NCBI GenBank assembly: GCA_963971405.1
Contig: OZ020484.1
Span: forward strand, 13,764,001-13,828,000
Direction of reading: 5' to 3'
DNA from: Psococerastis gibbosa
Taxonomy: Eukaryota > Arthropoda > Insecta > Psocodea > Psocidae
DNA: 64,000 bases
Below, one piece after another: positions 13,501 to 63,573 of the stretch; position 1 is the stretch's first letter; each line of letters begins with the position of its first letter. The notes beneath the pieces are model-generated. The model searched no databases. It was not told the origin of the DNA and was given only the letters and a program-made list of their open reading frames with translations. The position numbers and the translations under genes are program-made.

Positions 13501-16500
13501 GACACGATCTATTACTGTTGAACGTAAGATATTATACTAACCTTAATTTAATTATTTTAATTGTTTATTTTGATATCAGGCATAGCATAGGCCATCATTT
13601 ACTATGAAGTATTATAGTTGTTATTGATAATTTTGTTTCAGCCGACAGTCTTGGTATGCAAGGAGAGGATACAATGTTAGTAAGGAGGCCTTCAGCATAT
13701 GATGTTGCCGAAATTCTCATCACCGGAGTTGAGGAGGATTCCCATTCCAGCTTGGACCCCCGCAGTCCATCACCTGATGATATGCAACCATCATGGAAAC
13801 AAAGTCCCACTCCTAGTCGGCACAGGTAGACTATTCTCTTAGGCGCGGTTTCCACCGACCTCTAAATGCAAAATACACATACAGTGAAGTGGTAGCAGAC
13901 ATTCAAGACTTAGGCGGGGTTTCCGACGACCTCTCATTACAGAATGCAAATGACATTGACGGAAATTTGAATTTTTCTTTTTATAGAAATCTATTAAAAT
14001 GTTTGTATTTGACATATCCCATGAAGCCATTTTTTAATTTCAGTTTGTTTGTTTGTGATTTTACTCTATGATCATTGATCAATTTTAACTATGGCATAGA
14101 GTAAAACAAACATTTCCGTCAATGTCAATGTCAATTATCTATTTTGCACTTAGAGGTCGGTGAAAACCGCGCTTTAGAAATTTATTTTTTTCAAAGCAAA
14201 TTAGCCGGGCAACGGTCACAAATTGAAGATTAAAACAAGGAAGACAAACTGTATGAGTTATCTTTGTAAGCCGTGTTCTCTAAACGACTTTGCTGAAATT
14301 TGGCCATTTGTATTGAATCGTTTTTAATTTATATATATTCTGCAGTAATCCACGCTGGGAATTGGTCGGAAATACGGTTCTTGTCAATTGTCTTTGATAC
14401 AACTTGGTATGGCGTCATAAATAAATAATAAAAAATTGATTTAAGGCTGGCTTCTGAAGCACAATATGCCGAGACTGAAGTGGAGGAACTTCTTGCTATG
14501 CTTCGTGACAGTGAAAGTTTGGAGGAACAGGGCGACATATTACAATACTTAATGGACACCCAAGGTTTACAGTTTCAAACAGGTAATATTTGATGGAACG
14601 TGTTCAGATGTTTTTTAAAGTTTCGATCATCCTTTGGTAAGCTATTGCCTCTGGAGAAATTAAAATTGTTTAATACATTGGGGTAGGTTTGCCAGCAAAT
14701 ACTACAATAGCCTAGTGCATAATGAATTTGTAACTAGGTACTTCTGTGGATCACCTTAGATAGAGGAAAATTTAGAAATTAAACGAGCTGTGTTCGCTTC
14801 CTACAGACATTTTCTCAAGGATAGGCGGAGTGACCCTTATACATGTTAATACATTAGTAGGAAAATTAATTAACTTAGCCTTATAATCCCCAACTAACAC
14901 GCCAACACCTTTACTCCAGTTTGAAATTTGCAATTGTTCTTAGGCATGGTTGAAGATGACAAACCAGTCACTGTTCGCGAGCTTCTCAAATGTCTTTATC
15001 AAAAGGCGGCTTATGAACAAAAACTTTGGGGCCTTGTAAGACACACTGCTGGTATGCTTGGAAAACGAGCTGAAGATTTGGCTAAGTCAGTTACTGATTT
15101 GGTTGTCAGACAAAAGCAGGTAATTTCCCCAACATTGGCGCGCCTGAAACCAGGAAGGCTGTTTTTTTTTTTTTTTTTAATCATAAATTACAAAATTTAC
15201 AAATTATGGAAATCCCGTGCAGTCTTGTCAATGTTTATGCCTTTGTATGATGATCTAGTTCTGCGGTTTGATGTAGGTACAATTTTTCATGCTTTACATG
15301 CAGGCTAATGCAAAAAATTTCGCAGTTGGGCGCGGTTTCCACCGACCTGCTAGTGCTAAATACAAATACGGTGACGTGGTAACAGACATTCAAGACTTAG
15401 GCGGGGCTTCCACCGACCTCACATTGCAGAATGCAAATGACATTGACGGAAATGTTTGTTTTACTCTATGCCATAGTTAAAATTGATCAATGATCATAGA
15501 GTAAAATCACAAACAAACAAACTAAAATTAAAAAATGGCTTCATGGGATATGTCAAATACAAACATTTTAATAGATTTCTATTAAAAAAAAATTCATATT
15601 TCCGTCAATGTCATTTGCATTCTGCAATGCGAGGTCGGTGGAAACCCCGCCTAAGTCTTGAATGTCTGTTACCACGTCACCGCATTTGTATTTTGCTCTA
15701 GCAGGTCGGTGGAAACCGCGCCTTAGGCTAGGCTTAGTTCAATTCCGCTAGGGAACTCTATAGTTTGTACCATATACTTTTGTACAGGTAACGATCGGGA
15801 TGCCTCCTAATAATGAACAGACGATAACCGGAGCTCTTCCTGACGTTGAATTGCGCACTTTGATTCATTCAACCTATGGTGATGATCAAAGCAGTTACAT
15901 GCTCACACAAGAACTAATTGTGTATTTGGCCATGTTTATTCGTACTGAGCCCCAACTCTTTCAAGAAATGCTGCGCCTCCGAGTTGGCTTAATCATTCAG
16001 GTAGACACGAATCAATTTAAATAATATTAATTTTATTAGTGTTTTACCGTTTAAACCGCCCATGAGGAGCTGAAGGGAAGGATGACATAATTATGTGAAG
16101 TCACGTAAAGTAGGCTAGATCGGGTCCAGTATAAATAAATAAATAAAAATATGTGATATCCATGTTGGCATGAAGTGTACGCCGATGGCAGTGTTACGCC
16201 TCTGGATGGCTTGACCTGCAGCCTGATCGAGGCGATTATAATACCGGTATTTATTTAATCCCCTGGTATTAAAAATGTAAACAAGATAATTTTATAATGG
16301 AAAGTGCTATTCAAAATTTGTTTGTTTACAGTTATAATCCTAGGGTATTTATTTAACCCCGGTATTATAATCGCCTCGATCAGGCTGCTGGTGTGTTGAA
16401 CCTGCCTATAAATCTGAGGAATCATAACACTGTAGTTAGGCGGCTATTCCACCGACGTGGATTTTGAATGTGAATGTGTCATGACGTGGTAGCAGACATC

Positions 16501-19500
16501 ATTAATAAGTCTCTACCATATTATAACTTAATTTATAATAGATAAGTTAAGTATTTACATAGTAGTCTCCTTAAAATATGGCAGAGACTTATTAATGATG
16601 TCTGCTACCACATCATGACACATTCGTATTCAAAATCCACGTCGGTAAAATAGCCGCCTTATTGTTTATAAAAATGTAATCTGTTTTTTTTTTTAGGTAA
16701 TGGCGGCTGAATTATCTCGTGGTTTGGGCTGCAGTGGAGAGGAAGCCTCTGAGCACCTACTTAACTTATCTCCTTTCGAAATGAAGAATCTTTTGCACCA
16801 CATTCTCAGTGGAAAAGAATTTGCTCTTACAAGTGGTAAATATATATTTTGTCTTGGTAGCGGAAAGTTGTCTTCTTCTTCTTCTTCGCTGGACGCAATC
16901 TGTCGATTGATTTCTAGTAAATCTTTCCTTAATTTTCCCCATGCTTCTCTGTCCTGGGCTGTTCTCTTGAGTTCCAAGTAGCAAGTCATATCTTGCTTGA
17001 CGTCTTCCGCGTGGACCTTCCTCGATCGGCGCCTGGTAAGGTGCCCATTCCACATACGTACAACGTCAACGAAAAATTGAAAAATGACGTCAAAATGACG
17101 TAAATTGACGTGGTAGCAGAATTTAATGTCTGCTAAAACGTCATTTTTCAATTTTTCGTTGACGTTGTACGTATATGGAATACCCCCCTAAGTAGTCCCT
17201 CATGTCTGATAAGGTGCCCCACCCACTTAGCTCTTCTCCCAGATACGAAGGTAATTAGAGCCCTTTCTTGCTTTCTCCTTTGGAGCGCATCTTCGTTTGT
17301 TGTGTGGTCTCTCCATGATATTTTAGTATTCTTCTCTAGCACCACATTTCGAAGCCTTCCAACTTCTTCATGTCTTATTCGCAGCCATAAATCAGTATGC
17401 TCCAAACTAGTGTTTTAAGCAGCCAGTTGTTTATTTGTTTGTGCATACTGAGGTATTTATATTTTTCAGTGGGCCGTGGGAACTACTCAATAATTAGCTG
17501 CAAATCAAGCAGAGTAAGCAAGGTACGTTGATAATACCCCTAAATATTCAATGAATTAATATAAAATATCGACTTCAATGGGAAGGTGGTAGCGTGCTTG
17601 TACTTGTGTGAGTCTACACGCTATGCGATCGGAGACGTGTCGTAACTCAACACGGGTACTAACCTACAGAGGCGACTGAAGACGTCAATCGGTTGCATCC
17701 ATTAATTTAATTATATGCGACTAAAGTTTTTAGAATTAAAAAAAAAAAACAGTTAATATTAAACAAATTTGAACTTTGGTGTCATTTAGTTCTCGTACTA
17801 GCACCATAACGCTGAGGTCATGAAGTCAACTGACGAGCCAGACCCAGACAGTAGTGCCCACTGACTAGTGGAGCCCTTTAAGTGCAAATCGAATTAAACC
17901 ACAAATAGAGTTACTGTCAATTAGGGCCCTTGAACATATTTGAACCAATGGTTAAGAGACCGAGCTACATTACTGTGTAATTGTATGTTATAGAAGAGTC
18001 AAATAGGACTGGCACTTTCGGTGCCGAATGAGGGAGAAACTGAAGAAAGAGAAGACAGACAGGGCCAATGGTTAAGACGTCGGCGTTTAGATGGTGCGCT
18101 GAACCGTGTGCCTAGGGACTTTTATACTCGTGTGTGGACGGTTCTGGAAAAGGTAGGAGATAATATATTACTTTATATTATTTAATAATAGGGTAGCCAA
18201 ACGGTCAAAAACTGTTTCTAATCTGTATAAAAAAATTAATCCAGTCAGGACATGTAGAGTACCTAGTGGTACAGACTCGAACTTTGGCCCGATAGGTTGT
18301 TGGTTCGAGTCCCACACCTACTACATTTTCGGGCCATACTTCGGAGGGCATGTAAAGCAGGTGGTCTCGGGGCTTCCTTGTTGAGTGTAAGAGAGAGCTT
18401 TATTGCCCTATCTCCGGTGAGTTGGCTTAGTAATAAAACAAAAAGTTTTTTTTTTTAAACCCAGGGTATTAACACTAAACAACGGCCTGGCTGAGAGGCT
18501 GGAAATATCTACCCCTAACTAACAATTGTAACAACACAATTTGGTATTATTAGTCCTATTATTTTTTTTTTTTTCAGTGCCATGGCTTGGCTATTGAGGG
18601 CCGCTTTCTTCCTCAGAATCTCACCCAAGAGGTTTGTAAACACCAAATCCGAAAAAATATGTATGAAAGGTTATTTCAGGTAATTCTTGTCATTCGGTGT
18701 ATGGTGGATGGCATAATGACAATGTGGTGAGCAAATTTATGGATAGGGAAAAAGTGTCAGTTAAAGATTATTTTAACATATTTCCAATGCATATAAAATA
18801 TAAAGGCTTCCATTGATCACTATTAAGCATCCAATCAGCCAATGAGGCCACACTCCTATTCCGTGATCACGCATCACGCTCACAGTGGTAGATTACTTGG
18901 CCTTGTTTTAACAATAAATACACTATTTACAAAAGAAATTTAAAGATTCACTACTTTCACCGTTAATAAACAAAAAATAACAAAAACTTAGAGTTTTAGA
19001 AAAACTTGTTATAACAACCCGAATTAGTAAAACCCAAATAATCGTTAAGAAATTAACTTTGTCTAAGAAACCCACTTGTGTTAGTATAAAACCTTGAGCG
19101 CTTTCGGCAAGAACTGCCATCTACAGAGGGAAACCCACTAGCACAGTTACACCTTATCTGCGATTTGAGACTTGCTCAACTCGAGGAGAAGATGCAAATG
19201 TGAATAGGGAGAGGAAACCTTGGTTTATATAGGACTTGGAGCGGGGGGAGGAGGGGGTGTGAGGGGGCGTGGCTGGTTACCTATTCCTAACCTACTAGCT
19301 AGATCTATTAGAGGGGATGATTGTGTGAATGTTATGTCGTTTGTTAATTTTTCCCTATTGTGTAAAGCTCTCTTGATTTCAACATTTTCAAAAAAATTTA
19401 AAGTGTAACTTTTCTTTATTTTGTGTAGGGCTGTCCAATTGTGAGGATCGAATGTGTGATTTTCCGAGTTAAGGTGTTTCGCGAATGTGCTGTTGGTGTT

Positions 19501-22203
19501 GGTGTCTTCTATACCTGTTATATGTTCTCTGACCCTAGTTTTAAAGCTTTTGCCTGTTTGGCCTATGTAAATTGCGTTACAATCGTTACAATTTAGACGA
19601 TAAACTCCATTGCCTTTTTCCTTTCGAATTCGACTACTACCAACAAGAAATAGGCCTACCTATGGGTTCTTCCCTTTCTCCCCTTCTTGCCGAAAATTTT
19701 TATGGATAACTTCGAACACAAACTTCTACTCAATAAAAATCCCCTAGTTAAATGTATATCTTTCTGCACAAGGTATGTGGATGATATCTTCTGCATTTGG
19801 ACAGGAAGTAACAGACAACTAGACAATTTCTTAAGTTTTATCAACACAATTCACCCAAAAATCCAATTTACCATGGAAGTAGAAGAAAACAACTCCCTGA
19901 ACTTCTTAGACCTCACCATCACCAAAAATAATAGTACCCTAGACTTCAAGATATTTCGTAAAGAAACCCATAGCGATAATATAATCCCTGTTGATTCTTC
20001 TCACCCATTCCAGCACAAACACGCAGCATTCCATAGTATGATTTTTCGACTCCTTAACATCCCTATGAATGAAACCAACTATAATAATGAATTAAATACA
20101 ATAAAACAAATTGCCCAAAATAGCAATTTCAATCTCAATCTAATAGACAGAATCCTACGACATCACAAAATCAAACACAACCTCACACTAATTTACCCCC
20201 AGAGAGCTTAAACCCGGAAACCAATAAATAATATTTCAGGATACAATACATAGAAAAAATCACAGAAAAAATAAGTAACCTCATTTCTTCTACAACTGAC
20301 AAAACACCAGCCCCGTACAACCGCAACAGTTTGGCCAATAAACTCATGAACTGCAAAACCAAACCAGAAAAGGAAAAAGGCAATGGAGTTTATCGTCTAA
20401 ATTGTAACGATTGTAACGCAATTTACATAGGCCAAACAGGCAGAAGCTTTAAAACTAGGGTCAGAGAACATATAACAGGTATAGGAGACACCAACACCAA
20501 CAGCACATTCGCGAAACACCTTAACTCGGAAAATCACACATTCGATCCTCACAATTGGACAGCCCTACACAAAATAAAGAAAGGTTACACTTTAATTTTT
20601 TTTGAAAATGATGAAATCAAGAGAGCTTTACATAATAGGGAAAAATTAACAAACGACATAACATTCACACAATCATCCCCTCTAATAGATCTAGCTAGTA
20701 GGTTAGGAATAGGTAACCAGCCACGCCCCCTCACACCCCCTCCTCCCCCCGCTCCAAGTCCTATATAAACCAAGGTTTCCTCTCCCTATTCACATTTGCA
20801 TCTTCTCCTCGAGTTGAGCAAGTCTCAAATCGCAGATAAGGTGTAACTGTGCTAGTGGGCTTCCCTCTGTAGATGGCAGTTCTTGCCGAAAGCGCTATGG
20901 TTTTATACTAACACAAGTGGGTTTCTTAGACAAAGTTAATTTCTTAACGATTATTTGGGTTTTACTAATTCGGGTTGTTATAACAAGTTTTTCTAAAACT
21001 CTAAGTTTTTGTTATTTTTTGTTTATTAAAATGAAATACCACGAAGTCACGAGTAATCTAATTATTTATGTTCACCGTTAAAGAAAATTTTGATGGTGCT
21101 GTAACATTTGATAAATTTAACTTTGTAAATTTTCAGATGACACCCGGTGAGTTAAAATTTGCGTTGGCGGTTGAGACGGCTTTAAACACCATTCCACAGC
21201 CTGAGTACCGGCAGCTTATGGTTGAGGCACTCATGGTACTAACTCTTGTCACGGAACACAACGTCGTGGGTGCTCTGGGAGGAACTATAGCTGTAGACCA
21301 GATTGTGCACGCTGCCAACTCCATATTCTTACAGGATCAGGTGCCTAACTATTCTCAATCTGCTTTCACCCAACTTCCCTTTTTAATGAAGTTATCTTTA
21401 TCTAGCCCAACATCAAATGACAAGCTCTGTTTCCTCAAAAATGACCCGATATAGTGAAGAATACTTCTGCCAGGAAAATGGTGATGATTAGCATAAGATT
21501 AGTCGTTTCACTGACTAAGGGCGTGTCCGAAATGAACATGGGCTAACTGACAGGTTCCGAGAGTTTGCCGCTCTATCACTGTGATTGGGTTTCAGTAGTA
21601 AGTTAGTATGACTATCTACGAAAATTTTTTAATTTATTTATTTATTGTTTATATATCATTGTCTTATTTTACGTAACTTGCCTTAACTGCAACTGCAGTA
21701 TCCCCAGTAAAATAGTCAGTAGCTATATTTTTAGAGTTTATTCTATGACAATTCATATCACTCTTATGGCTGACGTCATACGTGAATCAAAGCGGACATT
21801 ACACAACCTGCGCAACTTGGTGGATTTTTTATGGGATATTGCTGATAAATACAAATCTAACATGGCGGCCTTAAAAGTAAAAGTACTTTAAGCAATGTGT
21901 ATTTGTGTGCCTTTGTGCTTATATGTAAACCTATATAAGCTATATGCCCACTCGTCAAACTATTGCAGTTTTTTCTTTCAGGTAAAAGTAAATGGAGATG
22001 CCACCTTGTGTTGTGCCAAACGAGGTGTTGACGTATCAGAAAACGGAGGACTCCTGTGTGGAGGAGCAGCTTATGTATGTCAGCACTTCTATGACAGCGC
22101 TCCAGGTGGCAGCTACGGTACACTTACTTATATGACACGGGCCGTAGCTAAGCTACTAGGCTCCTTACCTGGGGCCCAAGAAATGGACTGCAGCATTAGT
22201 TAA
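4590..22203 (+). CDS. PHKA: Phosphorylase b kinase regulatory subunit alpha, 22 coding exons
   Basis: Regulatory alpha subunit of the (alpha-beta-gamma-delta)4 phosphorylase kinase, which activates glycogen phosphorylase. Exons: 4590-4667, 4770-4928, 5667-5883, 6225-6307, 6572-6763, 7276-7464, 7850-8002, 9251-9424, 10218-10431, 11558-11815, 12612-12790, 13370-13523, 13642-13825, 14446-14582, 14944-15119, 15788-16000, 16697-16835, 17470-17522, 17994-18152, 18578-18631, 21137-21340, 21982-22203. All junctions are GT-AG and phases agree throughout, giving 3591 nt or 1196 residues (vertebrate alpha subunits are about 1220-1235). The start [15 protein letters not shown], the glucoamylase-like N-terminal half ([20 protein letters not shown]) and the C-terminal [20 protein letters not shown] are family hallmarks. 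The protein ends CSIS, a CaaX box. Introns carry MITEs, SINEs, foldbacks and a Penelope-like element, but no exon is broken. Confidence 0.96.
5001..5158 (+). mobile_element. Short retroposon (SINE-3 family) in PHKA intron 2
   Basis: A sequence of about 158 bp is flanked by a 12-bp direct repeat, TAGATAGTAGAT, at 4989-5000 and 5159-5170, and ends in (ACT)n. The same body recurs at about 8270-8427. The target duplication and simple-repeat tail indicate retroposition. I see no clear tRNA head, so the origin of the SINE is open. Confidence 0.75.
8163..8683. mobile_element. hAT-like MITE (family 1), interrupted by a SINE-3 copy
   Basis: The ends are CAGGGGTTCCC and GGGAACCCCTG inverted, with repeated GGTCC(R)TGGACCA phrases inside. 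A related, uninterrupted copy lies at 26961-27245. A SINE-3 copy (about 8270-8427, tail ACTACTACT) lies within it, so the MITE is the older insertion. It lies in PHKA intron 7. The CAGGGGTT terminus and the expected 8-bp duplication (poorly kept here) are typical of hAT elements. Confidence 0.65.
8270..8427 (+). mobile_element. SINE-3 retroposon copy nested in a hAT-like MITE
   Basis: Closely similar to 5001-5158 over its length, including the (ACT)n end. Its presence inside the MITE at 8163-8683 gives relative ages. Confidence 0.7.
9713..10150 (-). mobile_element. 5'-truncated LINE 3' end with (ATTC)n tail
   Basis: Minus-strand 10146-9919 encodes a LINE-like C-terminus ([11 protein letters not shown], then a phrase resembling the end of a reverse transcriptase polyprotein). 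The following 3' region ends in an (ATTC)n microsatellite at 9713-9744, read as TGAA repeats on the plus strand. Microsatellite tails of this type are typical of CR1/L2-like LINEs. It lies in PHKA intron 8. Confidence 0.6.
10520..10850 (-). mobile_element. Penelope-like element fragment (3' end only)
   Basis: Nearly identical, in reverse orientation, to the 3' non-coding terminus of the Penelope-like element at 20760-21070. It covers the non-coding terminus up to the GGTTTATATAGG region. No coding sequence remains. It lies in PHKA intron 9, directly before a SINE-2 copy. Confidence 0.8.
10901..11340 (+). mobile_element. SINE-2 copy split by a later retroposon insertion
   Basis: 10901-10995 and 11266-11340 together match the SINE-2 copies at 17569 and 49879 (starts TCGACTTCGATGG, contains GCGATCGGAGACGTGTCG). 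The interruption at 10996-11265 is bordered by a 15-bp direct repeat, TCAACACGGGTACTA, at 10981-10995 and 11266-11280. Confidence 0.8.
10996..11265 (-). mobile_element. Retroposon insertion inside SINE-2, 15-bp target duplication
   Basis: The inserted DNA begins on the plus strand with (TTA)n, which is an A-rich (TAA)n tail on the minus strand. It is flanked by a perfect 15-bp target duplication. It is therefore a retroposed sequence in minus orientation, probably a 5'-truncated LINE or a SINE. I do not recognise its body. Confidence 0.7.
13842..14172. mobile_element. Foldback element, subfamily A (copy 1)
   Basis: Long inverted repeat with ends GGCGCGGTTTCCACCGACC and its complement; TTA flanks both sides. 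Shared core phrases are GACATTGACGGAAAT, CTATTAAAATG and ATGATCATTGATCAAT. It starts 16 bp after the 5' splice site of PHKA exon 13. Confidence 0.85.
15329..15722. mobile_element. Foldback element, subfamily A (copy 2)
   Basis: Arms pair almost end to end (GGCGCGGTTTCCACCGACC to its complement), with a central loop containing ATTGATCAATGATCAT. It lies in PHKA intron 15. Short frames in it are by-products of the repeat. Confidence 0.88.
16218..16388. mobile_element. Small inverted-repeat element (distinct MITE)
   Basis: GCAGCCTGATCGAGGCGATT (continuing to ATAATACCGG) at 16218-16247 is matched by its complement at 16359-16388 around a loop of about 110 bp. It differs from the GGCGCC foldback group. 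No family assigned; no clear target duplication seen. Confidence 0.65.
16439..16658. mobile_element. Foldback element, subfamily B (copy 1)
   Basis: Ends GGCGGCTATTCCACCGACG and inverted complement, flanked by TTA at 16436-16438 and 16659-16661. The core contains AATAAGTCTCTACCATATTA on one arm and its complement on the other. It lies in PHKA intron 16. Confidence 0.88.
16860..17405 (-). mobile_element. LINE C-terminal fragment split by a foldback insertion
   Basis: Minus-strand 17405-17189 encodes a LINE endpiece ([17 protein letters not shown], then [16 protein letters not shown]). 17039-16865 continues it ([16 protein letters not shown]). The two parts are separated by a subfamily C foldback at 17040-17188. 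The WVGH-LRHE and RTAQDREAW phrases are typical of the C-terminus of RTE-like or related LINE proteins. It lies in PHKA intron 17. Confidence 0.75.
17040..17188. mobile_element. Foldback element, subfamily C (copy 1)
   Basis: Ends GGTGCCCATTCCACATACG and inverted complement, with TAA at 17037-17039 and 17189-17191. The short core has repeated TGACGTNAAATTGACG-like phrases. It is inserted in a LINE fragment. Confidence 0.85.
17569..17725 (+). mobile_element. SINE-2 copy
   Basis: Matches the copies at 10901 and 49879: starts TCGACTTCAATGG, has an A-box-like GGAAGGTGGTAGCGTGC, and ends near TGTATGCGACT-like sequence. It lies in PHKA intron 18. Confidence 0.7.
18258..18457 (+). mobile_element. 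tRNA-derived SINE (SINE-1), full length
   Basis: The head has an A-box-like CCTAGTGGTACAGAC and a B-box GGTTCGAGTCCC at tRNA spacing, followed by the body CGGAGGGCATGTAAAGCAGG and a tail GTTGAGTGTAAG...GGCTTAGTAATAAAAC. The tail matches the LINE 3' end at 1967-2040. It lies in PHKA intron 19. Confidence 0.85.
18967..21070 (+). mobile_element. Penelope-like element, 5'-truncated, with inverted partial copy
   Basis: The insertion is flanked by an 11-bp direct repeat, TTCACCGTTAA (18956-18966 and 21071-21081). The plus-strand unit encodes the end of a Penelope-type reverse transcriptase ([20 protein letters not shown], then YVDDIF near 19775) with a frameshift near 19700. A stop at about 20211 follows, then a GIY-YIG endonuclease (20331-20768: [20 protein letters not shown], later REHI). 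18967-19625 is a reverse-complement copy of the endonuclease and 3' region at about 20370-21030, so the insertion is a large dyad. Penelope-like copies are known for inverted and tandem partial arrangements. It lies in PHKA intron 20. Confidence 0.92.
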
Positions 22204-53100: not shown

Positions 53101-56100
53101 GTTTTTGGAACTTGAGACTCCATTCCAACACCCTACAGTCACAGGCCCAGAAGAGGACCTACATGAGACGCAGTTAATAAAACAAATTGTATCGAAGTTC
53201 GCCTTAATTCGTCTTTCCGCCAAGGCTCGGACGGACACTCTCCAACTCCAAAAGAACAGAGCTTCTCTTCGTCATAAGTTGTCTAAAGTTATTTTATTTC
53301 AAAATCTGTAAATAATCAAATTGTTTTTGTGATATACTGTATGTATCAAACCGGTGCATACACTCGGTAGAAGCCTGTTCCGAGAATCCTGTTGGTGAAC
53401 ATATACAGAAGCCACCAAGTGAGATGGCAATCATTTCAGCGGCAAGCTCTACGCATGAGCCTACTGAAGAGTTGCCTTCAGAGACAAGGATTTCACTTCA
53501 AAAAGGGAACACGAGTAACACGACGGTTCAAGACGTCCCAGCAGTTTCGCCGTCCTTAGCTGAGCGTCGTACAAGACGGGTGGTGAGAAAACTCAGAAAC
53601 TCTAATTATAATTGACATTATTTGGTGGTGCGCGCATTGAACACTCATTAAGTGTAGTGCGCGAGTTTAAGTTGTGTCGGAGAAGAAATACAAACTTTTC
53701 GTTTCATATAGGTCTTCCTCAAGGAAGCCAAAAGTTGCGGATGGAGGAATGTGATATATGTATCAAGGCCATGCCATGTCAGTTGTTGACGAGCGGTTAC
53801 AGAAGTAAGTAGCTGGTGGTATTTCATCCTCTCTTATGGACCTACAATATTATAAAGTTTTGCTCCACGGGAATTATTCATAAGCTTTCTATCATCAAAT
53901 TGCTAGGGCTAAGCTGCATGCTACTAGCGGGGTCGCAGGTGGCGGATAGCGAAAAGGCCACCAGATATGGTGGCTAGCTGCGAATATAACGAATAAGCAG
54001 TCCCCGACCAAGCAGCGGCATAATCGGAGGGTGTGGGGGCAAGTCTGGTAGTGCAGGCTTGTCTAGAAGAGGCCACAGTAGCCCAAGGATGATTATGTGA
54101 CGGGGCATGAAGTTGCCGCCCCTAAATAAGCAACCACTACTAGGGCACTGTTTTGTCCAGGTTCACACGAAAAATTCTGCCAGTTGCGAAATGCCGACGT
54201 CTTTTCCATTGTAGCCATAAGGCTGAGATTTTTGTAATATTGTACTGTACTGCATGTAGATATAATGGCCTAATATATCATTCATTCATTCCTTTTGGGG
54301 AGTCCGAAGCAGTGTCGGGTTTGGCCTTGTGGGGGCCCCTGGGCCGGAATTGTGGCAGAAAAGTCTTGCACCCAAATATTTCGAGTTTATTTATTTGCTT
54401 TAGTTCTTTAATTTATTGCGATTTTGTGGATTGTTGGACGGCCGTGGCCCTCCTGGCCCCATAGCCAAACACGGCACTGGTCCGAAGTATGGTATCTATG
54501 TGTTTACAATAACCTTGAAGATAATCAAATACAAGAAAATGAGCTAGACGGCCCTTTTTGATGTAGACAGAGTGTAGTAGTCTTAGGTAGGTAGTTAAAA
54601 TAATGGTGATAATAATGTTTCAAAATGTAGCTTATATTATAACTTATAGCCTATGCTGTATTTTTAGGCTAAGCTTTTCAGTCAGGTCCGTACCCCCAAA
54701 ATTTGATCGGATGGTCATTGTATTTACAGCCTCACAGGTGAATTACTACGGATGTATCATTTATAAAAATAAAAATCCTGGGTACGGGCCTGTTTTTAGT
54801 TGGCCTGCATAATTAAAACATTCGCTTCAAACGTATTTAATATAGTAAATAGTAAAATAGTATCAAATAGTTGCAAAATAAGTACTCATTCCAATAGATA
54901 AAAAATGAAATAGGCGATAGGGATTCATAATTCTATGATAGTGCCGTATGACACCGCATACTCTTGCCGTGCTAAGGCACATATCGGGTTTTGACCTGAG
55001 CGCCACGCACTCGGTGAATGGTGGTAGCTATCCATTTATATATATAGATCAATGGTTTTGACCCAATCATCACTATGACCATAGTCCTTCACGGTGTGAC
55101 AAACAACAAAAAATGGGTTTATATATTTTCTTAATCAAAACTTTAGGGGATTGTGCCGCTCTGACCCGCCAAGCTTCCCCAAAAATGATAGCCTAAATTC
55201 TTTAAAGTGAGTTTTTCGACACAAAAATATTTCAGATTGAAGTAACGCCCCCTCTTCTATGAGTTCTATGGCTCCCTTGACGTAACGTCCACGTCTCATG
55301 AACCGTGGCACTGGTAGCCTGTACCTTTAAAGACTTCGAAAAAGTTATAAGTGGGCTTACCTTTGCTCAATGAAACAAAAACTACCATCCATATAACTGC
55401 CAAATTGAAGGTGAGTTGGAACTTGAGGTGTCCGTAGGAACTGTAAGGTGCAGCGAGGCTGTGCCGTTGCAGCACGACACCATTAAGGTAGTCGGGCACA
55501 GTGAGATCTAGCCGCCCAAGAGTCTGGTTTAGGTACACTCCCGGTATCTCGCCAGCATCTTTAAAGGAAAAAAATATAATAATGATGATATGCAGCTTAG
55601 TTTAGGTTTTTTTGAAAATATATATAAAAGGTTAATCGCATACAAACAATTTAATGAATGTATCCGACTTACCTCTGCAGTCGCATCTGTATAGGTTAGT
55701 ACCCATGTTGAGTTACGACACGTCTCCAATCGCATGACGTGACTCGAACAAACACAAGCACACTATCACCTCGCCATCGAAGTCGAAGAGTTAGGCCTAT
55801 AGAAATAGGTGCCCATTCCATTGACCGGCTAGGGCTATTTCCAACAACGGTGACGTGGTAGCAGACATTCAAGACTTAGGTGGCGTTTCCACCGACCTCG
55901 CATTGCAGAATTGACGGAAATGTTTATTTTCCTCTATGCCATAGTTAAAATTGATCAATGATCATACAGTAAAATCACAAACAAACAAACTAAAATTAAA
56001 AAATGGCTTCATGGGATATGTTAATTACAAACATTTTAATAGATTTCTATTAAAAAAAAAAAAAAAATCCGTCAATGTCATTTGCAATCTGCAATGCGAG

Positions 56101-57525
56101 GTCGGTGGAAACGCTACCTAAGTCTTGAATGTCTGCTACCACGTCATCGTTGTTGGAAATAGCCCTAGCCGGTCAATGGAATGGGCGCCATAGGTTGCAA
56201 TCAACTTAGTCTTACTGCAGCAAACCCCCAATTGCCTTTTTAATGACGCACACATCTCCACAAACTCTCAGGTAGGTAGGCCACGCAAAGGTATATCGGC
56301 TTAGATATTTCGTCCAGTGGCGGAGCGTGGGATAATAAAATTACAAGTGTAATGCTTGCAAATATTTATTTATGTCGCTAAAGTTTAAACAAAAAAAAAC
56401 GCATCATTTTACAGAGCATCTTCTTAAAAATAAAAATATTAAATAAAAACATTAGAATTCTAATGTGACGAGATCCTTAATTTTTTCTTAGACTGCGTTG
56501 ATAACATCATGCCCATATACGATCATATTTGCTCGCGGCTTCCTATGCACGCACGCATCCATGCACATGCACCCTCCGCCACTGATTTCGTCAGTTCTAG
56601 ACGGTAGGCTCAAGTGTTGAATGAGAAAAGAATCATGAATACCGCCCTAAGAAGTATTTAAGAAATGTGCACCCAATACAATTAGTTTTATTTAAGGCTA
56701 AGAAAAATTCGGGACGTTTATTTTAATGGAGATGGAGTTCAAAAGAATAAGAGATAACCTACTTAATGGACTTCTTAATTACGATGTCTCCCGACTAATT
56801 AGCTTCAATATTGCCCAGCACACTGCAAGCGCGGGCATTCTCAAACATCAAAGAGTCCAGAGAGTTAAAATATGAAAGGGGATCATTATAGGTTACCGGC
56901 AGTTTTGGTTGAGTAAATTGAGTTCAATTGTATCCCATTTTTAAGTAGCCTACTAAGTAGCCTATAATCAGGACTGCGAAGTTCAAAATCGGACAAGACG
57001 CAAAATGTAATTTTATCCAAGTTAGTGTCAATTTTTTTTTTTTGAAACTCCCATTTTACCATGTTTAATTTGAATTTTCTGTAAAAAAAAAAAAAAAATA
57101 CAATTTTTTTCATCGCTAGCAAATAAGATTGTGTGAGCATGGTGTTATCAACGCAGTCAAATAAAATTAAGCATCTCGTCACGTTAGAAATCAAATGTTT
57201 TTCACATGTTTACTTATTAAGAAGATAGAACAAGCTACATAAAATGATATGTGTTTTCTTTTTTTTAAACTTAAATAACCATTATACTCGCCATTATCCC
57301 ACGCTCCGTCAATGGTATATTATGGTATTGTAAAGGTGTATACATGTAAATATTAACTATGCAAATTTACTCACCATCTCTATAAGGTAGGAAAGGTTCA
57401 GCCCATCGGTATGTGTCCTGCCTGGTTATGAATGAATCTCTGAAGTAGACGAACATCCAAGAAACTCCAACCATACTGTAGATACCGATGAGGGCCTGAG
57501 ATAGAAGTAAAGCGATCCCAATGCC
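26140..57525 (-). CDS. SLC6-family (neurotransmitter:sodium symporter-like) transporter, 3' nine exons
   Basis: Exons in transcript order: 57375-57525, 55361-55558, 42921-43138, 42403-42556, 33336-33589, 31759-32169, 28142-28329, 27394-27557, 26140-26330. The phases join, giving 641 residues plus stop. Order: TM3 (residues 1-30), extracellular loop with sequon NQT and TM4 (51-116), TM5-TM6 (117-189), TM7 (190-240), TM8-TM9 (241-325), TM10-TM12 (326-462), then a 180-residue cytosolic tail. GIGIALLLSQALIGIYSMVG, SYGKVVYVFTLVP and VGVFVQLVPLLSIPV fit SLC6. The SLGxGFG signature expected in TM6 is replaced by TWNLLGAA, so ion coupling may be altered or lost. The tail has three PPxY motifs and ends KTLV. 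TM1-TM2 exons lie beyond the window. Drosophila bedraggled is a possible relative. The acceptor of exon 33336-33589 is the least sure: a TAG 8 bp upstream is stronger but out of phase. Its donor is GC. Confidence 0.88.
26540..26770 (-). mobile_element. LINE fragment (C-terminal)
   Basis: Minus-strand 26770-26540 reads RREEILLSRMRLGHSRLTHG followed by a CxxC-like region. This is a well known C-terminal pattern of Jockey/R1-type LINE proteins (R-x-R-x-GH-x-RLTHG). It is short, broken, and in the last intron of the SLC6 gene. Confidence 0.75.
26961..27245. mobile_element. hAT-like MITE (family 1), intact copy
   Basis: Ends CAGGGGTTCCCAACC and GAGAACCCCTG inverted; flanks ATCTAGAC and TACTAGAC agree at 6 of 8 positions, as an aged 8-bp duplication would. 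It matches 8163-8683 apart from the SINE there. Confidence 0.75.
27661..27796 (+). mobile_element. SINE-1 copy, 5'-truncated
   Basis: Carries the body GCTTCGGAGGGCATGTAAAG and the LINE-like tail (GTTGAGTATAG, stem AGGGCTTCATAGCCCT, GGCTTAGTAATTG). The tRNA head is missing. Confidence 0.8.
28375..28693. mobile_element. Foldback element, subfamily A (copy 3)
   Basis: Ends GGCGGGGTTTCCACCGACC and GGTCGGTGGAAACCCCGCC, with TAA at 28372-28374 and 28694-28696. The outer part of the right arm is shortened. It lies 45 bp upstream (in transcript sense) of an SLC6 exon acceptor, at the left edge of foldback D. Confidence 0.88.
29333..29820 (+). pseudogene. Captured cellular-type gene fragment inside foldback D
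   Basis: Frame 29333-29566 reads ALFLSEKVDPSLLTLVGERF and later LDGLRYKRFAKTV. After stops it continues with ALPPTQDAACFHSLRVYHLI (about 29575-29640) and ends near SEPQSGPSKKSRLE (about 29815). The phrase LPPT-x-AA-x-HS-RVY recurs in uncharacterised arthropod proteins as I recall them, usually in longer multi-exon or element-borne proteins. Stops at about 29564, 29650 and 29697 show that it is not functional. Source and function are unknown. Confidence 0.5.
30348..30827. mobile_element. Foldback element, subfamily C (copy 2), nested in D
   Basis: Ends GGCGCCCACTCCACATACG and CGTATGTGGAATACCCGCC, with perfect TAA duplication (30345-30347, 30828-30830). The core contains TTTTACTCTATGCCATTG and CATAGAGTAAAAT, shared with subfamily A. 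Confidence 0.9.
31177..31700 (+). mobile_element. LINE 3' end fragment
   Basis: 31177-31596 encodes a LINE C-terminus: DRRNMYDVIAVYNILSNRF, then RRKSLFYINLYRTNYLQ and a basic end. It is followed by a 3' region ending in (TTTA)n at 31670-31693. 5'-truncated, in an SLC6 intron. Confidence 0.75.
33124..33302 (-). mobile_element. SINE-1 copy, nearly full length
   Basis: On the minus strand it starts GTAGCATAGTGGTACGG (A-box-like), has GGTTGTTGGTCCGAG (decayed B box), the common body, and the tail CTAGTTGAGTGTAAG with stem AGGGCTTTATAGCCCT. Confidence 0.85.
33598..34549. other. SLC6 intron sequence with SINE-1 copy and a long G run
   Basis: 33677-33812 is a second, 5'-truncated minus-strand SINE-1 copy with the same stem tail. 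At 34005-34027 a T run is followed by about 15 consecutive G, then CCCCC, which could form a G-quadruplex or hairpin. No gene seen in the rest. Confidence 0.6.
34554..38008 (+). mobile_element. piggyBac-family DNA transposon, decayed
   Basis: The element starts CCCTTAACTTGGCGC (34554) and ends GTGCCAAGTTAAGGG (38008). Both sides are flanked by TTAG (34550-34553 and 38009-38012) rather than the usual TTAA. Subterminal palindromes of type TATCCTACAAGATAC recur at 34570, 34910, 34966 and 35020 on the left and at 37808 and 37866 on the right. The single gene inside (34724-37751) is the transposase. Confidence 0.9.
34724..37751 (+). pseudogene. piggyBac transposase, two exons, at least three frameshifts
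   Basis: Exon 1 at 34724-34759 (MAPTRSKRNPPL) joins by a GT-AG intron to exon 2 at 35213. The N-terminal third is acidic and low complexity (SEDELSDDDC) and contains near-perfect tandem repeats of about 35 residues around SSRRKRSTPVM. The DDE_Tnp_1_7 domain starts near 36290 (SPVEYFHSFFS). Candidate catalytic aspartates are in QSIDEMMVPYKG (about 36700), VYFDNFF (about 36963) and GVDLQDM (about 37305). The C-terminus is a cysteine-rich zinc finger (CRYCAKG, HCIKCKVRLC). The frame breaks near 36810, 36985 and 37290, so no full-length enzyme can be made. Catalytic residues survive, so inactivation looks fairly recent. Confidence 0.92.
38013..39106. other. SLC6 intron, nothing firmly recognised
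   Basis: AT-rich sequence with short inverted motifs (for example CTGTTTCCGTAT-like and ATCTTACAAATG repeats near 38630-38675) but no gene, RNA or assignable element. A run of about 14 C lies at 38549-38562. Confidence 0.45.
39293..42069 (+). mobile_element. pogo-like (Tc1/mariner superfamily) DNA transposon, near intact
   Basis: Inverted ends GGGGAGACCTAGGATA (39293) and its near complement ending GGTCTCCCC (42069), with TA duplicated at 39291-39292 and 42070-42071. The motif GGATACTTGATCCC and variants (GATCAAGTATCC) recur near both ends (39320, 39660-39710, 41827-41885, 42045-42060), as expected of transposase binding sites. Length is 2777 bp. Confidence 0.95.
39752..41767 (+). pseudogene. 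pogo-like transposase with a single in-frame stop
   Basis: The frame starts MPRVYKPKEG at 39752 (chosen over an upstream ATG at 39737) and runs 671 codons with one TAA at 40046-40048. N-terminal helix-turn-helix: YDPKKVMQAVEEA, then GTARKFGINVMTLKRMV. DDE_1 catalytic core: NCDETGV (about 40292), IMDNHETH (about 40625), and HKLQPLDRGVYGPLK (about 40722), a DDD set. A lysine/glutamate-rich linker and acidic serine stretch follow. A C-terminal beta-rich region (NFIIVKL, YVAKIIDIGDDGLLKVIFAK) resembles endings seen in other insect pogo-type transposases. Apart from the one stop, the gene is intact. Confidence 0.93.
43162..43577. mobile_element. Foldback element, subfamily A/C intermediate, right end lost
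   Basis: Left end GCGCTTATTCCACCTACG; arms pair over TCAATAGTAAATGTGGTATT and its complement at 43547-43572. The core carries TTTACTCTATGATCATTGAT. The outer right arm is missing about 25 bp. It begins 22 bp upstream (in transcript sense) of the SLC6 exon 42921-43138 acceptor. Confidence 0.75.
43578..44837. other. SLC6 intron with a half foldback and G/C runs
   Basis: 44176-44262 is the left half of a subfamily C foldback (GGCGCTCATTCCACATAC, TGACGTCAAAATGACG). 44346-44403 has several runs of 7-10 G followed by runs of C, a strong hairpin or G-quadruplex candidate. 43730-43790 and 43860-43925 are diverged tandem-like copies around CTCTTT(A)TTGGNACAATAAAA. No gene except the possible leader of the coiled-coil gene near 44780. 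Confidence 0.5.
44838..46460 (+). CDS. Intronless coiled-coil protein of unknown function, 540 residues
   Basis: An unbroken 541-codon frame lies antisense within an SLC6 intron. The start ATG at 44838 follows an A-rich context, and no upstream in-frame extension is obvious. Residues 1-300 are charged and helical with heptad-like leucines (KIQRLQDGQLKW, EEEKRKKLADLV, NKRRRLLSLKQYW), predicting a long coiled coil. About 330-440 has a compact helical segment (LRLRAVLFSVHKCLEEALFL, then YHKRRDFAYQRRKELLEFI). The C-terminal 90 residues are acidic and serine-rich (DEDFEHSADSEDN, SLDWESDWSG). No signal peptide, membrane segment or transposase motif. I do not recognise the family; cytoskeletal or ciliary coiled-coil proteins are a guess. 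A conserved retrocopy is possible. Confidence 0.75.
   Translation: MNKKRENRPDHKGEILTETMKIMYENTIQFIRSKIQRLQDGQLKWADETKNIQDKMTLLEKEKQSSIDGLKSGLNELTEIKFEKRRTCHDLQVALKEDMEMYEQKVINVGKEIVVNEEEKRKKLADLVFEVNNIKNSIKNKSYLSEELNKRRRLLSLKQYWHEEKLDNIQDAHTIRVQKIKIEAEDNIGELLTLVGKGIFWEDRRMKFGLHKGSRKHNPFAPITTDIEVQLSMSLQRTSKESSRLTTQLSQNKGNYLTKFIEIIQKIKKKSLKSLGKLKIAEANKYLEDEITRSSEYIKMARESIADLKRQEKLCNDTLRDLILSSSEIKFRSKLALDLVKDEVEIVSSAMGSTTEDKAVNVIISAPLKADAEGNEELALRLRAVLFSVHKCLEEALFLYTVGLGVFPDEKNLSDQERYERYHKRRDFAYQRRKELLEFIIQILAHAHSRETCKKETVIETVKSVSDEDFEHSADSEDNPSIPLVTDESSESLDWESDWSGSLDQLGVIPADYDYGDREEVTSKSSLGTIQNLDVMFGEN
46461..46962. other. 3' flank of the coiled-coil gene
   Basis: AT-rich, no second gene seen. 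Contains small palindromic repeats (GCATTTATTAGTAATT, GGATCCTATACGGTATAGGATC near 46743-46766). Confidence 0.45.
46963..47270. repeat. Minisatellite, 76-bp period, four copies
   Basis: Units start near 46963, 47041, 47117 and 47193. Each contains AGCGGAAGCAATATTCAGAG, CTACCCTGTGTTATGTGATT and ATTGTAGGCCTAAACC. Units 2-4 are almost identical; unit 1 is more diverged, so recent expansion came from the right-hand units. Confidence 0.92.
47271..48873. other. SLC6 intron upstream of the THAP transposase gene
   Basis: No convincing gene. Near 47940-48010 there are mirrored GATCG-rich phrases (CCCGATCGGTCGCCCCGATCG). Near 48298-48310 lies a run of about 12 G. 48390-48450 has two copies of a CACAAGNTAAGTAC phrase. 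The 5' end of the P-like element should be in this stretch, but I could not identify its terminal repeat. Confidence 0.4.
48874..53311 (+). CDS. P-element/THAP9-like transposase, three exons, intact frame
   Basis: Exons 48874-48956, 49470-49743 and 51044-53311 join in phase to 874 residues (human THAP9 has about 900). Intron 1 has a GC donor (CAG|GCAAGT). Residues 1-90 are a C2CH THAP DNA-binding domain: CSGYNC, then KKW, CSYLCSEHF and the AVPSKF end motif. About 137-175 is a leucine-zipper-like coiled coil (KRIKALKMQRLRLRQKI). It is followed by the P-transposase RNase H-like core with acidic candidates in LALIIDSMAIRAQ, LTCDGTQSN and FLDACHMLKLARN. Intron 2 contains a SINE-2 copy and a mariner-like MITE. 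No frameshift or stop was found. It could be an active P-like transposon or a domesticated gene; terminal repeats were not found. It lies antisense in an SLC6 intron. Confidence 0.9.
49879..50035 (+). mobile_element. SINE-2 copy
   Basis: Starts TCGACTTCGATGGCCAGGTG, contains GCGATCGGAGTCGTGTCG, and ends with CATTCATTGCATTGTTTGTA-like sequence. It lies in intron 2 of the THAP transposase gene. Confidence 0.78.
50115..50562. mobile_element. mariner-like MITE with TA duplication
   Basis: Terminal CAGGGTGTTCCAGACCACCC and inverted GGGTGGTCTGGAACACCCTG, with TA on both sides (50113-50114, 50563-50564). Internal arms also pair (CTCGGTTATTATGAGGAATT versus its complement near 50505), making most of the element a hairpin. 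It is non-coding; the CAGGGTGT ends and TA target fit Tc1/mariner. Confidence 0.9.
53312..54309. other. Downstream of the THAP transposase; unassigned
   Basis: 53424-53615 is an open frame (SLAERRTRRVVRKLRNS) that may be element 3' sequence or chance. 53920-54125 is GC-richer, with AGCGGGGTCGCAGGTGGCGG and phrases like the 5' region of a non-LTR element, but I cannot prove this. The right end of the P-like element was not recognised. Confidence 0.4.
54310..54479. mobile_element. hAT-like MITE (family 3) with perfect 8-bp duplication
   Basis: Ends CAGTGTCGGGTTTGGC and GCCAAACACGGCACTG inverted; GTCCGAAG is repeated exactly at 54302-54309 and 54480-54487. Non-coding, 170 bp. The 8-bp duplication and CAGTG end are hAT hallmarks. 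Confidence 0.93.
54488..55360. other. SLC6 intron, nothing recognised
   Basis: AT-rich sequence without a supported gene or element. The open frame at 54603-54812 lacks recognisable content. Confidence 0.5.
55640..55790 (-). mobile_element. SINE-2 copy, minus orientation
   Basis: On the minus strand it starts TTCGACTTCGATGGCGAGGT and includes a CGATTGGAGACGTGTCGTAA-like segment and an ending GGATACATTCATTAAATTG. It lies close to a foldback at 55808. Confidence 0.78.
55808..56189. mobile_element. Foldback element, subfamily A (copy 5)
   Basis: Ends GGTGCCCATTCCATTGACC and GGTCAATGGAATGGGCGCC, with ATA on both sides (55805-55807, 56190-56192). The arms are nearly perfect over 150 bp each. Confidence 0.9.
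56315..56584. mobile_element. hAT-like MITE (family 4) with perfect 8-bp duplication
   Basis: Ends CAGTGGCGGAGCG and (C)CTCCGCCACTG inverted; ATTTCGTC repeated exactly at 56307-56314 and 56585-56592. A reversed, longer relative appears to end at about 57314 (ATTATCCCACGCTCCG). Confidence 0.9.
56593..57374. other. SLC6 intron with a partial hAT family 4 relative
   Basis: The segment ending at about 57314 is the reverse complement of the left part of 56315-56584 with differences (shared GGAGCGTGGGATAAT and AAGTTTAAA phrases). Its other end is not clear. No gene. Confidence 0.5.
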
Positions 57526-57656: not shown

Positions 57657-58049
57657 ACGCTTATTCCACCAACCGGCTAGGGCTAAATACAAATACGGTG
57701 ACGTGGTAACAGACATTCAAGACTTAGGCGGGGTTTCCACCGACCTCGCATTGCAGAATGCAAATGACATTGACGGAAATGTTTGTTTTACTCTATGCCA
57801 TAGTTAACATTGATCAATGGTCATAGAGTAAAATCACAAACAAACAAACTAAAATTAAAAAATGGCGTCATGGGATATGTTAAGTACAAACATTTTAATA
57901 GATTTCTATAAAGAGAAAAATTCTAATTTCCGTCAGTGTCATTTGCATTCTGCAATACGAGGTCGGTGGAGGCCCGCCTAAGTCTTGAATGTCTGCTACC
58001 ACGTCACCGTATTTGTATTTAGCACTAGCAGGTCTGTGGAATATGCGCC
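57657..58049. mobile_element. Foldback element, subfamily A (copy 6)
   Basis: ACGCTTATTCCACCAACCGG pairs with the region ending GGTCTGTGGAATATGCGCC; inner GGCGGGGTTTCCACCGACC and the shared core are present. The terminal bases are diverged, so the exact ends are approximate. Confidence 0.85.
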
Positions 58050-59230: not shown

Positions 59231-59614
59231 GGCGCCCATTCCATTGACCGGCTAGGGCTATTTCCAAAAACGGTGACGTGGTAGCAGACATTCAAGACTT
59301 AGGTGACGTCTCCACCGACCTCGCATTGCAGAATGCAAATGACATTGACGGAAATTAGAATTTTTCTTTTTATAGAAATCTATTAAAATGTTTGTACTTA
59401 ACATATCCCATGACGCCATTTTTTAGTTTTAGTTTGTTTGTTTGTGATTTTTCTGTATGATCATTGATCAATTTTAACTATGGCATAGAGGAAAATAATC
59501 ATTTCCGTCAATTCTACAATGCGAGGTCGGTGGAAACCCCGCCTAAGTCATGAATGTCTGCTACCACGTCACCGTTTTTGGAAATAGCCCTAGCCGGTCA
59601 ATGGAATGGGCACC
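59231..59614. mobile_element. Foldback element, subfamily A (copy 7)
   Basis: Ends GGCGCCCATTCCATTGACC and GGTCAATGGAATGGGCACC, flanked by TAT on both sides (59228-59230, 59615-59617). Confidence 0.9.
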
Positions 59615-59629
59615 TATACAACGTGAAAA

Positions 59630-60013
59630 GGCGCCCATTCCATTGACCGGCTAGGGCTATTTCCAAAAACAGTGACGTGGTAGCAGACATTCAAGACTTA
59701 GGCGGGGTTTCCACCGATCTCGCATTGCAGAATGCAAATGACATTGATGGAAATTAGAATTTTTCTTTTTATAGAAATCTATTAAAATGTTTCTACTTAA
59801 CATATCCCATGACGCCATTTTTTAGTTTTAGTTTGTTTGTTTGTGATTTTACTGTATGATCATTGATCAATTTTAACTATGGCATAGAGGAAAATAAACA
59901 TTCCCGTCAATTCTGCAATGCGAGGTCGGTGGAAACGCCACCTACGTCTTGAATGTCTGCTACCACGTCACCGTTTTTGGAAATAGCCTAAGCCGGTCAA
60001 TGGAATGGGCACC
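59630..60013. mobile_element. Foldback element, subfamily A (copy 8)
   Basis: Same ends and length (384 bp) as the copy 15 bp to its left, and very similar throughout. AAA borders both sides. Confidence 0.9.
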
Positions 60014-60766: not shown

Positions 60767-60942
60767 GGCGGCCATTCCACTTGTCAATATTACGTCATTT
60801 ATGCATCAATAATAAGTCTCTACCATATTATAACTTAATTTATAATAGATAAGTTAAGTATCTACATAACATTCTCCTTAAAACAAAACTCATCAATTAT
60901 TGATGGACAAATGACGGAATATTGACATGTGGAATAGCCGCC
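60767..60942. mobile_element. Foldback element, subfamily B (copy 2)
   Basis: Ends GGCGGCCATTCCACTTGTCA and TGACATGTGGAATAGCCGCC; core AATAAGTCTCTACCATATTA as in the copy at 16439. Confidence 0.88.
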
Positions 60943-61518: not shown

Positions 61519-61806
61519 GGCGCCCATTCCACATACGTACAATGTCAATGCAAATTATGAAATTGAAGGGCATTTCAATTTTACTCTATGCCATTGTTAA
61601 AATTGATCAATTATCAATTGATCATAGAGTAAAATCACAAACAATGAGAATATAGAATATTAGAAGTTCTTTGGTAAAATCAAAAACAAACAAACTAAAA
61701 TTAAAAAATGGCGTCATGGGATATGACAAGTACAACTATTTTAATCGATTTCTTTAAAAAGAACGCATTTCTGTATAAAAATTATAAAAATTATAATAAG
61801 GATTAA
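61519..61806. mobile_element. Foldback element, subfamily C (copy 3), right arm missing
   Basis: The left arm and core match 30348-30620 closely (GGCGCCCATTCCACATACG, ATGAAATTGAAGG, AAGAACGCATTTCTGTATAA). The sequence stops at GGATTAA, where a subfamily A copy begins. The right part does not resume after that copy. Confidence 0.82.
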
Positions 61807-62188
61807 GGTGCCCATTCCATTGACCGGCTAGGGCTATTTCCAAAACGGTGACGTGGTAGCAGACACTCAAGACTTAGGTGGCGTTTCCATCGACCTCGCA
61901 TTGCAGAATTGACGGAAATGTTTATTTTCCTCTATGTCATAGTTAAAATTGATCAATGATCATACAATAAAATCCCAAACAAACAAACTAAAATTAAAAA
62001 ATGGCTTCATGGGATATGTTAATTACAAACATTTTAATAGATTTCTATAAAAAGAAAAACAAACATTTCCGTCAATGTCACTTGCAATCTGCAATGCGAG
62101 GTCGGTGGAGACGCCACCTAAGTCTTGAGTGTCTGCTACCACGTTACCGTTTTGGAAATAGCCCTAGCCGGTCGGTGGAATGGGCGCC
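61807..62188. mobile_element. Foldback element, subfamily A (copy 10), abutting a C element
   Basis: Ends GGTGCCCATTCCATTGACC and GGTCGGTGGAATGGGCGCC, with TAA on both sides (61804-61806, 62189-62191). Confidence 0.9.
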
Positions 62189-62365: not shown

Positions 62366-62399
<34 letters not shown>

Positions 62400-62412: not shown

Positions 62413-62600
62413 GGCGGCTATTTCACTTGTCAATATTCCGTCATTTATGCATCAATAATAAGTCTCTAACATATTATAACTCAATTTATAATATTATATA
62501 TTATATATTATAAGTACCTACATAATAGCCTCATTAAAACAAAAATCTGATCCATTATTGTTGCACAAATGACGGAATATTGACAAGTGGAATAGACGCC
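62413..62600. mobile_element. Foldback element, subfamily B (copy 3)
   Basis: Ends GGCGGCTATTTCACTTGTCA and TGACAAGTGGAATAGACGCC; TTA on the left and TAA on the right; the loop has extra ATATTATAT palindromes. Confidence 0.88.
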
Positions 62601-62811
62601 TAAATAAATGTTGGAAAATAGCGTTCTTTTGTACTTCTGAAAACATGATTCCAAAATATTTTGCTAACAAAATCCACGTAAAGAAATGACGTCAAACCCC
62701 AATGAATTGATTATTTGGACCCATCATGTGAATCTTCTGATTGGCTTGATTGGTGCGTAAACATAACTGTAAGTAATTCCACGTTCCACACTTCCACTAG
62801 TTCAATGAAAT

Positions 62812-63310
62812 GTTACAATTTAGGGGCCGAGCATTGCATTTCTTAGAGGCAGAAATTTTATTTTTGAAACATGTGAGGGGGGTCAATAGAAGCTTAACCT
62901 CAAGTTTGTGGGGTCGCCACGCTTGTCCCCCGGCCGCCATCTTAGAAAAAGGGGTGTAAACCTTTTTTTCGCGGTATCTCGGAAACTATGCGTCTTACAA
63001 AAAATTTGTAAGGACCTAATTTATGGCAAATTATTTTGCCTACAAATATGTTTTATATAACTTTTCGCCCTAAATTAAATATTAAAGAAGTAATAAGCAA
63101 AAAAGTAAGAAAAGTTTTATAACAATTTTCTTTTTTGCTCTATAACATTTTTTTTTATACATTTTACAAAAAAATTACCTCAAATCAATATTGTAGATGA
63201 TCTTTTGAGGAAAATTTTTTTTCTATAACTTTTTTTATTTCATTCATTAAAAACGCTGTTACAGCGCTCTAAAGTCGACCGGGCTCGTCAATGTTCATGA
63301 GAATCCAGTC
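62812..63310 (+). mobile_element. Single arm of foldback D
   Basis: Colinear with the left arm of 28697-29220 (GTTACAATTTA, GAGGGGGGTCAATAGAAGCT, AGATGATCTTTTGAGGAAAA), with no matching right arm or captured fragment. Either half an element remains or this is a related element of non-foldback type. Confidence 0.8.
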
Positions 63311-63395
63311 TCAAAGATAAGAAATGGTCTGTAGAAGTGTTCATAAAAATTTACATACAATACAATTTCTCACCTGCTGAAATATTATAGTATTA

Positions 63396-63573
63396 GGAGG
63401 CTACTCCATCTGTCAATAATCCGTCATTTGTGCATCAATAATTGATGAGATTTATGTTTTAAGGAGACTATTATTAGGTGATACTTAATTTATCTATTAT
63501 AAATTGAATTACAATATGGTAGATTTATTATCGATGCATAAATGACGGAAAATTGATAAGTGGAATATCCGCC
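63396..63573. mobile_element. Foldback element, subfamily B (copy 4)
   Basis: Ends GGAGGCTACTCCATCTGTCA and TTGATAAGTGGAATATCCGCC; perfect TTA duplication (63393-63395, 63574-63576). Confidence 0.88.

Follow-up and report, generated by a model that had tools for sequence, protein, structure and literature searches.

A modular superfamily of non-coding foldback elements, probably of the PIF/Harbinger kind, in the genome of Psococerastis gibbosa

Copies in the window

The window analysed here is a 64,000-nt stretch of the 409-Mb genome of Psococerastis gibbosa (assembly GCA_963971405.1, contig OZ020484.1, positions 13,764,001 to 13,828,000), and it contains many copies of a superfamily of short foldback elements. 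A sequence-only reading of this window had listed 19 copies with shared ends, sorted them into subfamilies A, B and C, and proposed that ends and cores are exchanged as modules and that an unseen transposase moves the elements, which it described as encoding no protein. Every one of the 19 coordinates proved to be the start (left end) of a family copy, with both ends present in 15 of the 19. Some descriptions needed amendment: the right end is absent in the three truncated copies (43162, 44176 and 61519), copy 39107 extends to 42344 owing to an inserted 2.8-kb pogo-like element, and copy 57657 actually starts at about 57656. Sites within 4 mismatches of GGCGCCCATTCCAC number 65 on both strands of the window, whereas 20 mononucleotide shuffles gave 15 on average. 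No listed open reading frame (ORF) of at least 100 amino acids lies inside an element, and three cross an element boundary, which agrees with the description of the copies as non-coding. Their lack of coding capacity and their length of less than about 600 bp are those of miniature inverted-repeat transposable elements (MITEs), and they have the terminal inverted repeats of PIF/Harbinger MITEs. Below, A1 refers to copies with CCGACCGGC ends, A2 to copies with TTGACCGGC ends and D to the 16439 type, and W stands for A or T. (No strand is assigned to any copy of the family; the triplets given are those on the left and right flanks.)

13842-14173, A-type copy, old, flanks TTA/TTA
15329-15722, A-type copy with inner ends at 15400 and 15651, flanks TTG/TTA
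16439-16658, hybrid copy with GTGGTAGCAGACAT-bearing arms around a B core, flanks TTA/TTA
17040-17188, short C-type foldback without core, flanks TAA/TAA
28375-28693, A-type copy whose termini are an outer-type left subterminal sequence and an inner-type right end, flanks TAA/TAA
30348-30827, C-type copy with the A/C core, flanks TAA/TAA, empty-site relative at 62847-63146
39107-39292, A-type copy, left part, interrupted by the pogo-like insertion
42070-42344, right part of A-type copy 39107
43162-43582, copy with the A/C core and different arms, right end lost
44176-44267, C-type left arm alone
55808-56189, A2 copy, flanks ATA/ATA
57657-58049, A-type copy, flanks without duplication
59231-59614, A2 copy, flanks TAT/TAT, within the genome query 59231-59629
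59630-60013, A2 copy, its own insertion 15 bp past copy 59231, flanks AAA/AAA
60309-60688, A1 copy, flanks TTA/TAA (differing at W)
60767-60942, B copy, flanks TCA/TAT
61519-61806, C-type copy, left part only, ending where A2 copy 61807 starts
61807-62188, A2 copy, flanks TAA/TAA
62413-62600, B copy, flanks TTA/TAA (differing at W)
63396-63573, B copy, flanks TTA/TTA
39293-42069, forward strand, pogo-like element of 2.8 kb inserted in copy 39107, with a 552-amino-acid DDE_1 ORF at 40109-41767, ends GGGGAGACCTAGG and a duplicated TA

Abundance and evidence for transposition

The ends are abundant far beyond the window. Exact matches across the genome number 5,585 for TWAGGCGCCCATTCCAC, 6,767 for the 35-place A2 end, 367 for a B end and 106 for a D end, and the reversed control pattern gave 0 in each case. 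Among the first 100 matches listed for the A2 end, the flank is TAA or TTA in 79. In the 29 elements of this sample with both ends the flanking triplets are identical in 21, whereas 20,000 shuffles gave 10.4 on average and never more than 20. We then tabulated 101 elements, excluding every inner end pair as well as the truncated copies (three) and 39107, which is interrupted. Identical triplets flank 61 of them (52 TWA and 9 other), 24 carry TAA on one side and TTA on the other, and the remaining 16 show other differences, which in 12 amount to a single base. Ascertainment varied: TWA was not a requirement in the reading of 66 of the 101 (although G is excluded from the first and third positions in those from the A2, B and D end listings); these comprise 33 with identical TWA, 9 with other identical triplets, 12 with TWA triplets that differ at W and 12 that differ otherwise.

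Paralogous empty sites tell the same story, with a single TAA where the filled site has TAA/TAA. Such sites were found for element L008 (when compared to L036 and L081 and, less closely, to window position 50608) and for the window C copy 30348 (when compared to 62847-63146); further alignments to L007 and to 28732-29021 were gapped at the junction and uninformative. The 3-bp TWA target site duplication is that of PIF/Harbinger MITEs. The 3-bp identity and the empty sites do not agree with the 2-bp TA duplication of a Tc1/mariner (Stowaway) MITE, nor do the triplet identity and the empty sites agree with the 2-bp AT duplication of an ISL2EU MITE. Taken together, the 3-bp target duplications and the paralogous empty sites support the proposal that the elements are mobilised by a transposase encoded elsewhere. 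Such a transposase would recognise the common terminal 14-19 bp and move the elements by cut and paste.

An alternative is that the copies spread through segmental or tandem duplication of larger blocks, one of the conditions under which the sequence-only reading would have had to be given up. Copies 59231 and 59630 do stand in tandem, 15 bp apart, and element L004 is flanked by two copies of a 73-bp direct repeat. However, 59231 and 59630 have separate triplets (TAT/TAT and AAA/AAA), and the paralogous empty sites contradict duplication of larger blocks. Moreover, when 37 left/right flank pairs were tested, only those of L004 (score 73) and L011 (score 18) exceeded 13, the 99% level of a cross-pair null. 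The target duplications and empty sites thus exclude block duplication as a general cause, and we regard it as extremely improbable.

Arms, cores and fossil ends

Core alignments were made with a single representative copy per subfamily (A, window copy 59231; C, L013; B, 62413). As had been proposed, A and C have a core in common (137 of 177 aligned columns identical; score 99.5, maximum in 200 shuffles 35), and the B core differs from that of A, the score of 31.5 lying below the shuffle maximum of 33.5 and so not beyond chance. The group drawn as B mixes two kinds. Whereas 60767, 62413 and 63396 have arms and core in common, 16439 (which has CCGACG) carries a B core (70 of 90 columns identical to 62413; score 50.5, shuffle maximum 29) inside arms bearing GTGGTAGCAGACAT, a word that A elements, short C-type copies and 16439 all have, with at most 2 mismatches, at the inner portion of the arm. 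The right arm of 16439 mirrors the left, and by eye this symmetry extends, with a single mismatch, for about 20 bp of the core. Because the junction of GTGGTAGCAGACAT with the B core has 2,087 genome matches (at most 3 mismatches), 16439 is a member of a large family and no local accident.

In the A elements a further end pair lies 71 bp inward of the outer one, flanked by ATTCAAGACTTA and TAAGTCTTGAAT. Since these flanks are mirrored, they do not constitute a target duplication. Genome-wide, exact inner ends of GGYGGCG form stand after GACTTA in 3,582 cases and after a TWA lacking that G in 75; by our own count 53 of the 75 read xACTTA and 22 read otherwise, and therefore at most 22 of 3,657 are candidates for real termini (a count that covers the GGYGGCG form, with the older GGCGGGG form outside it). 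In copy 28375-28693 an inner-type right end does serve as a terminus, with TAA on either side.

We considered whether the core common to A and C might have entered each of them separately, by insertion at the palindrome centre, as a simple nest of one MITE in another. The inner ends lie 71 bp in and the inner element has TWA-like flanks, as such nests would have. The inner flanks are mirrored rather than direct repeats, however, and the empty outer palindrome of A, joined via TTAA, gave 0 genome matches (at most 3 mismatches; only the TTAA join was searched), which does not fit simple insertion at the palindrome centre. Independent nesting therefore appears unlikely.

A chimera could instead form when one foldback element inserts into another's loop; alternatively, new arms could be joined to an old core by template switching at short common words (TTCCACCGACC, GTGGTAGCAGACAT). 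One arm would then be copied as the mirror of the other and the resulting chimera amplified, in which case the subfamilies would have arisen stepwise. A-type ends whose next four bases are all unlike GGCT number 24, and 19 of these combine an outer terminus with inner subterminal sequence, as expected from a switch or deletion at the common TTCCACCGACC; these 19 hybrid ends are the only rare recombinants seen. The proposed exchange of ends and cores thus stands as history, given the 2,087 junctions and the 3,582 fossil inner ends, but ongoing reshuffling is unsupported, and most copies appear to descend from a small number of chimeras that already existed and were later amplified. In its many copies the set preserves a natural history of the acquisition of new arms and cores by foldback MITEs, an older end pair still being visible inside a newer one.

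Family assignment and search for a transposase

Because the elements have TWA duplications and inverted ends and lack coding sequence, we think it very probable that they are non-autonomous foldback DNA transposons of the PIF/Harbinger (Tourist-like) kind, an assignment that the duplication, the ends and the structure fit. Like MITEs derived from PIF/Harbinger elements (mPing, for example), those described here are short and non-coding, with inverted ends that begin with GG, a 3-bp TWA duplication and very high copy number. They differ from mPing-type MITEs in having long foldback arms and a second, fossil end pair, in that about one third of the copies with TWA on both sides are discordant at the middle base, and in that their autonomous partner was not found. 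They appear mostly to be ordinary biology, a large modular MITE superfamily, in which the unusually frequent triplet mismatch at insertion sites is the part worth following. In our literature search no paper with the end sequence was found, and titles and the starts of abstracts, searched with narrow terms and hence weak evidence of absence, revealed neither MITEs with nested ends like these nor genomic Harbinger copies whose TWA duplications are discordant.

Alternatively, the MITEs might be moved by a transposase from a different superfamily that targets T-N-A, for example one of the Tc5/pogo or NuwaII type. The 3-bp duplication fits such an enzyme, no Harbinger partner was found, and single TGA or TCA flanks occur among the matches to the B and D ends; furthermore, the Tc4/Tc5 foldback elements of nematodes have both the foldback form and a TNA target. 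The end sequences of Tc4/Tc5 differ from those of these MITEs, however, and here the middle base of the target is nearly always W. In particular, the 100 listed A2 ends include 82 T-N-A flanks, and the middle base of these is A or T in 79, C in 3 and G in 0. The window's single DDE_1 element is bounded by different ends and duplicates TA, and on these grounds its ORF was rejected as the source of the MITEs. We consider mobilisation by another superfamily quite improbable. (TWA duplications are reported for PIF/Harbinger, a 2-bp AT duplication for ISL2EU and a C-TNA-G target for NuwaII; PMC4482050.)

Searching the genome for DDE_Tnp_4 yielded 220 candidates, of which 150 places were scored, and a PIF-type DDE query yielded 81 genome matches. 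Among the sequences covered by this search, L069 and L092 contain MITEs of the family. Several points weigh against the PIF/Harbinger assignment and the history proposed for the elements. TWA flanks by themselves do not name a transposase, and no autonomous partner with these ends was found at 50 of the 150 DDE_Tnp_4 places, scanned mostly for 1.3-1.6 kb on either side of the domain, so that the ends may lie further out. Identical triplets are missing in 40 of the 101 tabulated elements, the TTAA-joined outer palindrome is absent, as described above, and the route suggested for arm exchange is reconstructed from end products alone.

The same genome contains DDE_Tnp_4 elements with THAP, DDE and YqaJ-like ORFs, which we take to be ISL2EU (the names were given by eye). 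These have a DDE_Tnp_4 transposase of the PHIS group and many near-identical copies; they differ from the MITEs in the 2-bp AT duplication reported for ISL2EU, and the one extended copy (L069+L048+L070) shows ends of the MITE type only in MITEs in or beside it. On several contigs, copies of the L048 family (for example G000:C1:22482408) match over 3.5 kb either perfectly or at 99.9%; they carry THAP-like and YqaJ-like ORFs (by eye) and have a C-type MITE inside. This family is very young and ISL2EU-like.

Discordant target triplets

TWA is present on both sides of 76 elements, and in 24 of these the middle base differs between the sides (32%, 95% interval 21-43%). These W-swaps occur in 9 of 32 A2, 10 of 20 A1, 3 of 14 C, 2 of 8 B, D or other and 0 of 2 old window A elements (A1 versus A2, p 0.14), and in 12 of 45 elements read without the TWA requirement. 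They are fewer than independent flanks would give (p 0.0018).

Three other causes were considered. For mutation, the 12 other single-base differences predict, by our own estimate, about 1.5 swaps rather than 24. Hairpin correction of one arm from the other is not supported because the two arms of one copy resemble each other no more than they resemble those of other copies, the difference being 0.0819 within and 0.0837 between copies for A1 (n=17, p 0.25) and 0.0507 and 0.0492 for A2 (n=14, p 0.62). (The pooled A1 and A2 test was significant, with n=31 and 0 of 2,000 permutations, which we put down to the presence of two subfamilies.) Recombination between copies is disfavoured, as it would need to have involved more than half of the copies (own estimate) and would leave most pairs with a non-TWA flank discordant; in A2, such pairs are instead identical in 7 cases and discordant in 4. 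For B, D and other elements the ratio of identical to discordant pairs is 1 to 5.

It is possible, if somewhat unlikely, that the flanking TWA triplet travels with the element, in which case target site duplications would not be plain copies of the target. The mPing study suggests that the target duplication is cut in a staggered way that leaves a 5' overhang, and it tests artificially mismatched duplications (PMC4561436). Extrapolating from that excision model, a 3-base staggered excision would leave a 5' TWA tail on either end of the element; at insertion the carried tail would pair with the target TWA, and a mismatch at the middle base would be repaired randomly at each end. With unbiased repair, and with A and T equally common in targets, our own calculation gives an equilibrium at which one third of copies would be discordant, and 24 of 76 were observed. 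If tails are carried, thousands of genomic copies could test the integration step of Harbinger transposition, for which only an excision assay was found in print among the texts consulted. At L004 (1424-1962), an A2 copy with inner flanks TAA/TTA lies between the two 73-bp repeats, whose outer, unoccupied triplets are TAA and TTA; the two W differences from these outer triplets would fit carried tails, and a tandem repeat that was there beforehand explains them equally well.

Other elements in the window

Several other repeats and coding sequences lie in the window. An intact 763-amino-acid ORF at 51020-53311 matches P-element transposase domains, and a 543-amino-acid ORF at 35195-36826, with three 81-bp tandem units inside, has a DDE_Tnp_1_7 domain of the piggyBac type. 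At 19097-20896 there is a 528-bp inverted repeat, its halves 99% complementary and separated by 744 bp; relatives lie at 10521-10834 and 18963-19233. The repeat at 28697-30292 and 62812-63317, whose copies are about 88-89% alike and include inverted ones, hosts the C copy 30348. Finally, reverse transcriptase fragments are found at 913-1440 and 3090-3692.

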